NCBI GenBank assembly: GCA_035515795.1
Contig: DATJAY010000012.1
Location: forward strand, 88,532 to 152,531
Length of the DNA stretch: 64,000 nt
Source of the DNA: Candidatus Acidiferrales bacterium
GTDB lineage: Bacteria; Bacteroidota; Ignavibacteria; Kryptoniales; JAKASW01
Reading direction: 5' to 3'
The position numbers and the translations under genes are program-made. The notes under the pieces are model-generated. The model saw nothing but the letters and a program-made list of their open reading frames with translations, ran no database searches and was not told where the DNA came from. Positions 18,722-21,846 of this stretch are shown here, in pieces (position 1 is the first letter of the stretch; each line of letters opens with the position of its first letter).

Positions 18722-19414
18722 TTACCTTAGGAGCGTTCCCGCAAAAATCCTTACTTGTAACACAGGTTGCAATGTGCTTGTGGAAAAAATTTTTATGAAG
18801 CCGGATATGTTGTTCTGGTCCTTTGGACTAAGATAAAGGTGTAAGTCGGTAAACTCGCCAGGCTTTAGTTCTTTTTTGTCCAACCTGTAAGTGATCTCGT
18901 CGTATGGTATCTCTACCTTGGTTATTTGAATCTGTTCGTCCGACGTATTGCTCAGAGTAACGCTTGTGCTGTCGGTTGTACCAACTTTGATTTCGCCGAA
19001 TACTGCATTATTGGGAGTCGATTGTAAGGCATAAGCAACGTATCCCGTCATCCGAATTGAGATAAGCTGGGTCTTCGGATCGGAAGTATAAACGTAAATA
19101 TTTTTTGAGACTTCGCCGATGTAACCCAGCGGATTAAATTCAATGTTTATTCGGACTTGCCCGCCGGGTTCCAAAGTACTGTCCGAAATCATGGCGGCAG
19201 TGCAACCGCAGCTTGTGCCAACATTCGTTATCTTGATTGCCTCATTCCCCAAATTTTTTAGAGTAATTGCCTCATGAACTTTTTCCCCAGTTTGATAAAT
19301 CTTGCCGAAAGAGATTTCATTTCCTTCAAGTACTTTTAGCTGAGCTTTCGCTCCCGCCGCAGCAAATAGGAGCACCAAGATAGGCAGCATCCGAAAAATG
19401 AATTTATGTTTCAT
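18722..19414 (-). CDS. DUF1573 domain exported protein
   Basis: A signal peptide (about residues 1-24, ending A-K-A-Q) is followed by an Ig-like DUF1573/ASH-type domain. It carries the family hallmark T-S-C-G-C-T-A, then P-G-G-Q-V-R-I-N-I-E-F-N-P and the Y-V-Y-T-S-D-P strand. A second related beta domain follows (about 125-230). DUF1573 proteins are abundant in Bacteroidota and exported, but their role is unknown. Its start overlaps the end of the upstream NYN gene by 11 bases, so the two form one operon on the minus strand. Confidence 0.88.
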   Translation of the reverse strand: MKHKFIFRMLPILVLLFAAAGAKAQLKVLEGNEISFGKIYQTGEKVHEAITLKNLGNEAIKITNVGTSCGCTAAMISDSTLEPGGQVRINIEFNPLGYIGEVSKNIYVYTSDPKTQLISIRMTGYVAYALQSTPNNAVFGEIKVGTTDSTSVTLSNTSDEQIQITKVEIPYDEITYRLDKKELKPGEFTDLHLYLSPKDQNNISGFIKIFSTSTLQPVLQVRIFAGTLLR

Positions 19415-19886
19415 GTTTATTCTCTTTAAAAAGTTTCAACAATTCAGGATCAAATTTTGGAGTCGGTTTTTCCGAAAGATGTTCGATCGTCTCTCTTTCT
19501 CTTCTCCGGCAGCGCATGAATGAAAGAAAGTCTTTGCTTCCGATGACCTTTGCGCCGCATTCCTTTGCATAATTTATGATTGAACGGTCATTCGAAACGA
19601 CAGTAATGGAACTCCGTTTCTCATGGTTGCCGACAATCTTTTTTATGAGTTCATCCGCCGTTTCATGTGAGGCTGAGAATCTTATTTCGAAATTGGGAGT
19701 AATTTTCTCTACTGCTCCTCCCGATCTTCCGTCAAAGACCAGAACTATCCTGTCACCACGAAATTTCCCAGAGAAAGCGATCTCTTGGATCAATTCTCTT
19801 CTGGAACCTTCTATGCTGTTTCTTGCCATCGCCGCCAATTTATGATCGGCAAGGATGACATTATACCCGTCCAATATCCACTTCAC
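19404..19886 (-). CDS. NYN domain protein, YacP-like predicted ribonuclease
   Basis: The 160-residue protein starts M-K-W-I-L-D-G-Y-N-V-I, the opening of the YacP/DUF901 branch of NYN (PIN-like) nucleases, with the metal-binding Asp6. Further acidic positions occur in V-L-V-F-D-G-R-S, E-T-A-D-E-L-I and V-V-S-N-D-R-S. The family includes Rae1, a ribosome-associated endoribonuclease of Bacillus subtilis, so an RNA target is likely. It is cytosolic and co-transcribed with the DUF1573 gene it overlaps. The reason for that pairing is not evident. Confidence 0.85.
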   Translation of the reverse strand: MKWILDGYNVILADHKLAAMARNSIEGSRRELIQEIAFSGKFRGDRIVLVFDGRSGGAVEKITPNFEIRFSASHETADELIKKIVGNHEKRSSITVVSNDRSIINYAKECGAKVIGSKDFLSFMRCRRRERETIEHLSEKPTPKFDPELLKLFKENKHET

Positions 19887-20120
19887 ACCTCCGAATATAA
19901 CGTGCGGTTATTTCTGTTCAAAATAATATACGCGCAGATAAAAATCCCATTTTGCGATTTCCAATCTCGTATTGCAACGATTCTGTTATAAAAACATCCA
20001 AAAGAATCATTTTTTTGAATATTTTTTTGGCACGATCTTAGTATATTAGAAACATGAGTTTACAGTTCATTAGACAAATTTGATTCTCAGGCAAGCAGTT
20101 TGCGAAGAAAAATATGAGTT

Positions 20121-20313
20121 TGCATACCCGCAAACAGCCCCCTGACATGGGAAGGAGATCTTGCCGCTCAGTTATCCCACGCTGCCACAAATCGCGAAGC
20201 ACGACTCGCATGCCCTAATGCAGCCTCCTAATTTAGCGGTCAAACCCCAAGAAAGATTCTTCTTCCCGCTGCGGAAAACAGGCACTCCTGCCCGGGAGTG
20301 CCTCGTTTTTTTT
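20121..20313 (+). ncRNA. Candidate structured small RNA ending in a strong intrinsic terminator (6S-like architecture possible)
   Basis: The 500-base gap between the NYN gene and the next coding region contains nested long-range pairing. CCGCA (20128-20132) pairs with TGCGG (20270-20274). GGGAAGGAGATCTT (20149-20162) pairs with AAGATTCTTCTTCCC (20253-20267), with one bulge and one G-U. GCCGCT (20163-20168) pairs with AGCGGT (20235-20240), and a small apical hairpin GCAT/ATGC lies at 20208-20221. Together these make one long rod with an asymmetric internal bubble containing CAGCCCCCTGACAT, followed at once by a terminator. Rod plus bubble is reminiscent of 6S RNA, but no family consensus was confirmed. 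No protein-like frame covers it, and the 5' end is not defined. Confidence 0.5.
20280..20313 (+). terminator. Strong intrinsic terminator
   Basis: AGGCACTCC (20280-20288) pairs perfectly with GGAGTGCCT (20295-20303) around a short loop, and eight T residues follow at 20306-20313. It ends the candidate small RNA, and no coding region precedes it on this strand. Confidence 0.85.
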
Positions 20314-20387
20314 GGAATGAATCTCGTGAAACCGCTGATCGGTCAAGGTTTTCTTATGAAGGGCTAAGTTTACAGGTCTTATTTTAA

Positions 20388-20708
20388 GTGACGGCAACTG
20401 AGCATACAAAAAGAGTGTTTGGTACAAGAGAAGAGCGCGATTCGTTGTTCGGCAGTCTGATTGGAGCCACTGTAATTGCAGTAATTGCGACTTCTTCCTT
20501 TCGCTTAATTCCCACAGAATCCATTAGTTATGAAAGAATCTTGATCGGTGGAATAGGAGGCGGGATCGGGGGTATATTGGGTCTTTTCATCATTTGCGAG
20601 ATTGTGGGGCGGAGGTGGCTTAGAGTGGTTATGCTTTCTTTGGCGCTCGGTGTTCTTGACGGGCTGCTGGTGGGTGCTGCAATCGCCTTTTTCCCATCTA
20701 TTTTCTGA
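20388..20708 (+). CDS. Small multi-pass membrane protein, unknown function
   Basis: A GTG start gives a 106-residue protein with three predicted hydrophobic segments (about 21-41, 51-70 and 78-103). The middle one is a glycine-rich G-G-I-G-G-G-I-G-G-I-L-G stretch with glycine-zipper-like G-x-x-x-G spacing. The basic G-R-R-W-L-R loop lies between segments two and three. I do not recognise a family, and the start is uncertain. It follows the small-RNA terminator and precedes the M23 peptidase promoter, so it is probably transcribed separately. Confidence 0.6.
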   Translation: MTATEHTKRVFGTREERDSLFGSLIGATVIAVIATSSFRLIPTESISYERILIGGIGGGIGGILGLFIICEIVGRRWLRVVMLSLALGVLDGLLVGAAIAFFPSIF

Positions 20709-20775
20709 ATTCTCCCAGTCTAGTACGCACTTTTCAAATTCGGTTTAAAAATCTTTCGGGGTATGAATTTTTTTC

Positions 20776-20803
20776 TTGACAAAGACTTCGGCCCTTCTTA
20801 ACT
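20776..20803 (+). promoter_or_regulatory. Candidate sigma70-type promoter of the M23 peptidase gene
   Basis: TTGACA at 20776-20781 and TTAACT at 20798-20803 are spaced by 16 bases, 110 bases upstream of the ATG at 20914. The -35 is consensus; the -10 is weak. Confidence 0.35.
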
Positions 20804-20913
20804 TCCACTTGTCGCGTTTGTAAGGCAACCCTGTTTTCGAATACGACTTTTCATGCCCGAGGGTCGTTGTTTGCTCGAGGGCAATCCGTATCTTAAAAAG
20901 TGAGGTTAGGCTT

Positions 20914-21846
20914 ATGCGAAAACTCTACTATTTCTCTAAGGCCGACTTGAGCTTCAAATCTGTCGGAGGGGGAAAGCTGTCGGCGGTGATAGTCATCGTG
21001 ATGCTAGCTGCATCAATTCTGACTATGGTGTCGGGTTATTTTGGAGTCGATTTGTTCGGGTTAAAGAGCTTGCGCGCAGATAGTATGGCTAGAGAGAATT
21101 CTATTTTGAGAGCTCAGCTTGCGTCTTTGAATCGGCAGCTGGGATCTTTCCAGACTGTTATGAAAACCCTAGGGCAAAGTGATGAGCAATTGCGAACCAC
21201 AGTTAACCTCCCACCGATCCCGGACGACATGCGGAAAGCCGCTGTAGGCGGTGTCGAGATGAATACGGATTACGGGGTGTCCTCAGATGCGAATGAACTG
21301 ATTGCGAATGCGGCTGGTACCTTAGATGCACTTGAGAGACAATCGAAACTGCAAAGCCAGAGCTACGCGGAAATAATGAATAAGTATCAGAACAACCAAA
21401 AACTTTTTGCGCACATTCCAGCGATTGATCCGATCCACGGCGGAATCGTTACCGATGGCTTCGGGATGAGGTACCACCCGATATTGCGAATGCGACTCAT
21501 GCACGAGGGGATTGACATCGTAGCTGATGTCGGGACAGATGTATACGCGACTGGTGACGGAACAGTCTCTTATGTTGGTCCCAGGGGTGGTTACGGCAGT
21601 GTGGTCGAAATAGATCACGGGTTCGGTTATACCACTTTATACGGACATCTATCTAAACCATTGGTGCATGAAGGGCAGAAAATAAAACGAGGGCAGGTGA
21701 TAGCTTTGACCGGAGATACGGGTTTGTCCACCGGTCCTCACTTACATTATGAAGTGATGAAAAACGGCGTACATGTTGATCCAACAGCATACTTCTTCAG
21801 TGGAAAAGAGTATAACGAAGCAGTGCCTTATAATACAGCGAACTAA
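20914..21846 (+). CDS. M23 family metallopeptidase (peptidoglycan endopeptidase)
   Basis: The 310-residue protein has one N-terminal membrane segment (about 22-45), a coiled-coil-like stretch (about 58-95) and a C-terminal LytM/M23 domain. The zinc site is complete: H-E-G-I-D (His197, Asp201) and H-L-H (His276, His278), and the Y-G-H-L strand is also present. This layout matches bacterial cell-wall DD-endopeptidases anchored in the inner membrane that act in the periplasm during growth or division. The next gene encodes a small DUF2795 protein 73 bases downstream. Confidence 0.92.
   Translation: MRKLYYFSKADLSFKSVGGGKLSAVIVIVMLAASILTMVSGYFGVDLFGLKSLRADSMARENSILRAQLASLNRQLGSFQTVMKTLGQSDEQLRTTVNLPPIPDDMRKAAVGGVEMNTDYGVSSDANELIANAAGTLDALERQSKLQSQSYAEIMNKYQNNQKLFAHIPAIDPIHGGIVTDGFGMRYHPILRMRLMHEGIDIVADVGTDVYATGDGTVSYVGPRGGYGSVVEIDHGFGYTTLYGHLSKPLVHEGQKIKRGQVIALTGDTGLSTGPHLHYEVMKNGVHVDPTAYFFSGKEYNEAVPYNTAN

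Follow-up and report, generated by a model that had tools for sequence, protein, structure and literature searches.

The Probable RNA Locus and Its Neighborhood

The window, by which we mean the whole 64,000-nucleotide stretch of DNA analyzed here, contains, as previously described, a gap of about 500 bases, which is bounded by open reading frames at 19886 and 20388. Within this gap lies a rod-shaped RNA core followed by an intrinsic terminator, with a promoter-like motif and a boxA-like motif on the upstream side (Table 1). The conserved element occupies about 20122–20310, which corrects the limits of 20121–20313 given in the preliminary description. Beyond the small membrane-protein gene the next gene encodes an M23 peptidase, and in seven loci from the sister family the M23 gene still adjoins a BamA-like gene, but the RNA and the membrane protein were both not found. 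The membrane protein itself is found in all 13 genomes of the genus and in none of 184 other genomes of the class. Its predicted model has three helices at low confidence (mean pLDDT 60.6), it has no match in NCBIfam or PADLOC, and the Pfam matches of the window protein are weak and below cut-off, with only scattered ones among 12 family members.

Table 1. Features of the RNA locus and the adjoining genes, in window coordinates.
Feature	Position	Strand	Basis
YacP-like NYN gene	19404–19886	−	Pfam NYN_YacP
Promoter-like motif GGCACG-N3-TTAG, sigma-54-like (GG, ten bases, G)	20029–20041	+	14/14 aligned loci
Variable 5' leader of the predicted transcript	20053–20121	+	Putative start about 12 bases past the −12-like G
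boxA-like motif GTTCATTAGACAA	20065–20077	+	Pattern TTCNTYNNANAA in 12/14 leaders
Rod-shaped RNA core, nearly invariant	20122–20276	+	Alignment of 13 genomes and fold
Mini-hairpin AACAGCCCCCTGAC, CAG-CCCC-CUG, in the basal bubble	20133–20146	+	Fold; 14/14 in the L015 element
Apical hairpin GCGA-AGCACGAC-UCGC, then AUGCCC	20193–20215	+	Fold; 23/24 in the L015 element
Intrinsic terminator	20276–20313	+	Stem-loop and first five T invariant in 13/13
Small membrane-protein gene, 106 aa, three predicted helices	20388–20708	+	Confined to the genus, as is the RNA

Distribution and Conservation

A blastn search with 20030–20325 against 61 genomes, the window's own included, matched the 13 genomes of the genus and none of the 48 others. 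The same 13 were the only matches of a covariance model of the element, run with stricter filters on 391 genomes of the class (0 of 378 outside the genus). Under laxer filters, with E up to 10 in 20 genomes of the order, no homologue appeared in the seven outside the genus, which belong to the sister family, and in the M23 neighborhoods of 17 non-genus loci searched with filters off the best hit reached only 10.2 bits (E 1). When genome contigs were scanned with a 17-mer, 28 stretches came up, 11 of them the RNA and 17 not; the 11 belong to entries named Bacteroidetes bacterium (10) and Candidatus Kryptoniota bacterium (1). Searches for the element in plasmids and phages, and for a 15-mer of it in viral contigs, gave nothing outside the genus. 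The RNA occupies one locus, at the same place in 13/13 genomes, with gene order kept over the compared stretches. Genome G009, with a contamination of 4%, also has a second copy that is cut off at a contig end.

The alignment of full copies from the 13 genomes spans 191 columns including the terminator, and only 8 of these vary, with pairwise differences from 0 to 5 (mean 2.1). For comparison, seven genomes of the genus were searched for 16S and five yielded it; among these five the 16S genes are 94.2–97.1% identical and the element differs at 0–3 of 191 columns, so that its divergence is about 4 times below that of 16S. Between the window genome (G000) and its relative G004 the element differs at 5 of 191 columns; 6S RNA has, besides gaps, 29 differences in 209 aligned positions. 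The neighboring proteins are 66–78% (M23), 57–68% (membrane protein), 42–59% (DUF1573) and 37–55% (NYN) identical to those of the window, and ClpX, over long matches, 86–89%. Near-invariance begins at GCATACC and stops in the terminator, giving the element sharp borders. Since the flanks have diverged, the element appears to be under purifying selection rather than recently transferred, and its slower change than that of ribosomal RNA suggests that its job is probably important.

Folding of the Element

The minimum free energy of 20121–20313 is −67 kcal/mol, which none of 200 shuffles matched (mean −47.6, sd 4.2, z −4.64). The fold contains, as placed in the preliminary description, all three helices of the proposed long rod (20128–20132/20270–20274, 20149–20162/20253–20267 and 20163–20168/20235–20240), and the terminator announced there is present and strong, with a stem-loop at 20280–20303 and a T run. 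The rod without its terminator also folds better than expected, at −45.9 against −34.3 for shuffles (sd 3.6; 1 of 500 as low). An RNAalifold consensus of the 13 copies comprises 57 pairs, none with a double change, but 55 of the 57 never vary, and the two that do are A-U/G-U. Of the 8 variable columns 6 are unpaired and 2 are paired with the pair kept, so none breaks a pair, an outcome reached in 0.7% of trials when the same 8 changes were placed at random (p 0.007). Because the structure was computed from these same sequences, this compatibility is support for the fold and not proof of it.

Predicted Upstream Control Region

The promoter-like motif reads GGCACG-N3-TTRG across the relatives and is kept in all 14 loci despite their diverged surroundings, 80–105 bases ahead of the core. 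Sigma-54 promoters have a −24/−12 element of the form GG-N10-GC. All 14 loci have the GG and the G at this spacing, and a C follows the G in only two (L002 and L011). The rpoN gene was found in 46/46 genomes. Neither sigma-54 pattern is enriched in the genus: the canonical one gave 10 matches against 14 in a reversed control, and the variant one gave 7 at the RNA locus and 6 elsewhere against 4 in the control, all 6 off-locus matches lying within open frames at least 160 codons long. If the motif is a promoter, transcription probably starts near 20053, about 70 bases before the conserved element, and the resulting 5' leader is unconserved in sequence apart from the boxA-like motif.

The pattern TTCNTYNNANAA occurs in 12 of the 14 leaders, where 0.16 would be expected from shuffles (maximum 2 in 500 rounds). 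When it is combined with the promoter motif, 13 of 197 genomes of the class match; 11 of these belong to the genus, every one of them at the RNA locus, with G003 and G008 the two members that fail the strict pattern. The two matches outside the genus were set aside as chance, one lying in a histidine-kinase-like gene and the other being without the RNA. boxA-like motifs are also present in the rRNA leaders of the genus (5/5) and ahead of 6S (2/2). Upstream of 16S (L023–L027), a terminator-like GC hairpin and T run follow a first boxA-like motif and precede a second motif, G(T)TNTTTGACAAG, in 5/5 loci, an arrangement that suggests attenuation and antitermination of rRNA transcription. Shortly 5' of both 6S genes (L017 and L018) the exact boxA consensus occurs as GTTCTTTAAAA, and the end of the open reading frame preceding them has a putative resemblance to ZapA. 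The pattern in the RNA leaders differs from the exact consensus GYTCTTTAANA, which, as given in PMC5725501, is that of gamma-proteobacteria.

At 20098–20104 the leader reads GTTTGCG, which complements the first part of the core at 20129–20135. This pairing beats shuffles in 5 of the 14 leaders (L001, L002, L004, L006, and L008), where it could form an alternative fold or a processing stem, and not in the other 9, and therefore does not constitute a general switch.

Similar Hairpins Elsewhere

In genome G006 an 84-nt palindrome-closed element lies on the minus strand of a prophage-like, repeat-rich region (L015, about 1485–1568) in which we recognized, by eye, a terminase-small-subunit-like open reading frame. 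It carries AACAGCCCCCTGAC (14/14) and CGCGA-AGCACGACTCGCATGCCC (23/24) in the order and on the strand of the RNA with closer spacing, and folds into the two small hairpins of the RNA. A chance pairing of the two modules seems unlikely by an estimate from their bit scores of 36 and 28, but the coincidence was noticed post hoc. Copies of this element were sought in plasmids, phages and viral contigs and none was convincing, the one weak phage match having an E of 0.8. A further match, at about 1501–1524 of L016, covers the apical hairpin only (23/24). It is located close to the 5' end of a gene on the minus strand, whose leader would therefore be complementary to the apical hairpin.

A more speculative picture, which we regard as quite improbable in its entirety, is that of an RNA-protein machine peculiar to this lineage; it would have originated alongside the small membrane protein within a single genus and be frozen almost throughout, more tightly than 16S, with the otherwise unrelated L015 element as a possible mimic or decoy of the RNA.

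Comparison With Known RNA Families

Across the window the only Rfam family above its cut-off is a tRNA elsewhere, and ARAGORN likewise finds a single tRNA-Leu in the 64 kb. A search of 19880–20920 against Rfam with E up to 10 returned only two eukaryotic families, far under their cut-offs, and the tmRNA, RNase P, and SRP covariance models had no match at the element or in the window. The 6S model, run with E up to 1 and stricter filters and confirmed by cmscan, matched in 2 of the 13 genus genomes: in the window genome on another contig (G000:C35:26059-26282; 47.1 bits against a cut-off of 46.4, RF00013), and in G004 at 49.8 bits, also above the cut-off.

Weighing the Alternatives

The resemblance to 6S RNA that had been remarked on does not hold up as a matter of identity. 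The element is rod-shaped with a bubble, which is what would favor a divergent 6S RNA, but it has no 6S match even at E up to 10, and since the 6S gene of the same genome is found elsewhere, above cut-off as it is in G004, the element is not that gene; we give the idea almost no credence. A small protein gene seems nearly as implausible. The earlier statement that no protein-like frame exists broadly stands, with the exception that one sense frame runs without stops for 55 codons in 12 of the 13 genomes; an indel breaks this frame in the 13th (L007), another alters its tail in the window genome, its stop is not conserved, and its codon positions are equally frozen, third positions changing no more than the others. 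A regulatory RNA that base-pairs through its C-rich loops (CCCCC, CCC, CCC, CCUCC, CCCC), which would bind the Shine-Dalgarno regions of mRNAs, is a more serious candidate that we nevertheless consider unlikely. The five C-rich runs of the core are mostly unpaired and CCTCCT equals the anti-Shine-Dalgarno sequence of the genus 16S (5/5 genes), but 5 such runs are barely above the 3.0 of shuffles, 47 of 500 of which reach that number, and the C-richness of the loops is mostly a matter of composition (C minus G of 24 vs. 22.9 in shuffles). The helices are frozen as much as the loops. The longest open loop, the sole loop searched genome-wide, is without a conserved target, its perfect complement occurring 13 times at the RNA itself and 10 times elsewhere in the 13 genomes against 8 for a reversed control. 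Nor is a duplex with the start of the membrane-protein gene consistently above shuffles at the 13 loci.

The chief rival is a cis-acting leader or attenuator, in which the structure and the terminator would set read-through into the membrane-protein gene, and perhaps the M23 gene, with the decision made at the boxA-like site or by a bound ligand or protein. It owes this place to the next gene being equally restricted to the genus and without an obvious promoter, and we judge it possible, if clearly the less probable account. The RNA (0/378 other class genomes) and the membrane protein (0/184) are both confined to the genus and the distance between them is steady in 13/13 genomes, but this joint occurrence comes from a single clade, so it may reflect one evolutionary event. 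Promoter-like sites in the interval from the terminator to the membrane-protein gene do not clearly exceed shuffles (the best score 9/12 in two loci, as do 9–11 of 100 shuffles), so the gene may be read through from the promoter of the RNA, which would make the RNA its leader. The boxA-like motif stands ahead of the terminator, and the rRNA leaders of the genus likewise put such a motif ahead of a terminator-like hairpin. Against this, the terminator never varies, its loop included, and no consistent antiterminator emerged in the 4 loci examined: pairing of the upstream RNA with the 5' arm of the terminator is no better than in shuffles in 3 of them and only slightly better than shuffles in the window, where 14 of 200 did as well. 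A mechanism that depends on a protein may nevertheless apply.

Proposed Role of the RNA

The preliminary description had proposed a new structured small RNA, and this is supported by the same placement in 13/13 genomes, sharp borders, upstream motifs, a terminator that never changes, variable columns that agree with the fold, and the lack of any Rfam match. It is likely that the element is a free-standing RNA gene, whatever its mechanism. A trans-acting RNA of this kind fits the promoter-like motif, the boxA-like leader, the terminator and the near-total freeze of the sequence. Helices, loops and even the loop of the terminator are frozen, and for this reason the most likely function in our analysis is to bind a protein or serve as a scaffold; the RNA would then work in the way of 6S or CrcZ while being neither of them. 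Constraint over the whole length would favor protein binding over seed pairing. For the complete statement, an RNA gene of its own with a sigma-54-like promoter and a boxA-like leader whose product binds proteins in trans, we put the chances at about even.

In the mechanism that we infer from these features, as regards transcription and its start site as well as the sigma-54 and boxA functions, the action in trans and the protein partner, RNA polymerase would start at the conserved sigma-54-like promoter, near 20053, and transcribe the short leader with its putative Nus-factor site. It would then pass through the rod of about 190 nt, which includes its own terminator, and stop there. The folded RNA would act in trans, presenting its CAG-CCCC-CUG and GCGA-AGCACGAC-UCGC hairpins to a putative protein partner.

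Several known systems offer partial parallels. Like 6S RNA (RF00013), the element would be an RNA gene of similar length that forms a rod with a bubble, and in this genus a boxA-like motif lies upstream of 6S too; unlike it, the element lacks a covariance-model match, and the true 6S, located elsewhere, differs more between G000 and G004. CrcZ and CrcY are RNAs of Pseudomonadaceae that depend on RpoN and titrate Hfq. The element resembles them in its possible sigma-54 promoter, its probable free-standing nature and its proposed protein binding, but it belongs to another phylum, its sigma-54 control and its partner are putative, and no homology is claimed. The boxA-controlled transcripts named in PMC5725501 include rRNA and suhB; as in these, the boxA-like motif of the element sits between a putative promoter and a structured untranslated region, whereas this motif is imperfect and putative and the transcript seems to end at an intrinsic terminator.

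Significance

Our literature searches returned no paper on small RNAs in Kryptonia and none on an sRNA that is confined to one genus and better conserved than 16S. RNAs whose sequence evolves at a lower rate than rRNA usually have a wide distribution. An RNA that changes more slowly than rRNA and yet was found in only one genus of uncultured FCB bacteria is thus an unusual combination, and it raises the question of what partner constrains nearly every nucleotide of it. With one locus, clear ends, upstream motifs that are kept and a possible partner gene adjoining, the element is a clean candidate with which to pursue that question.
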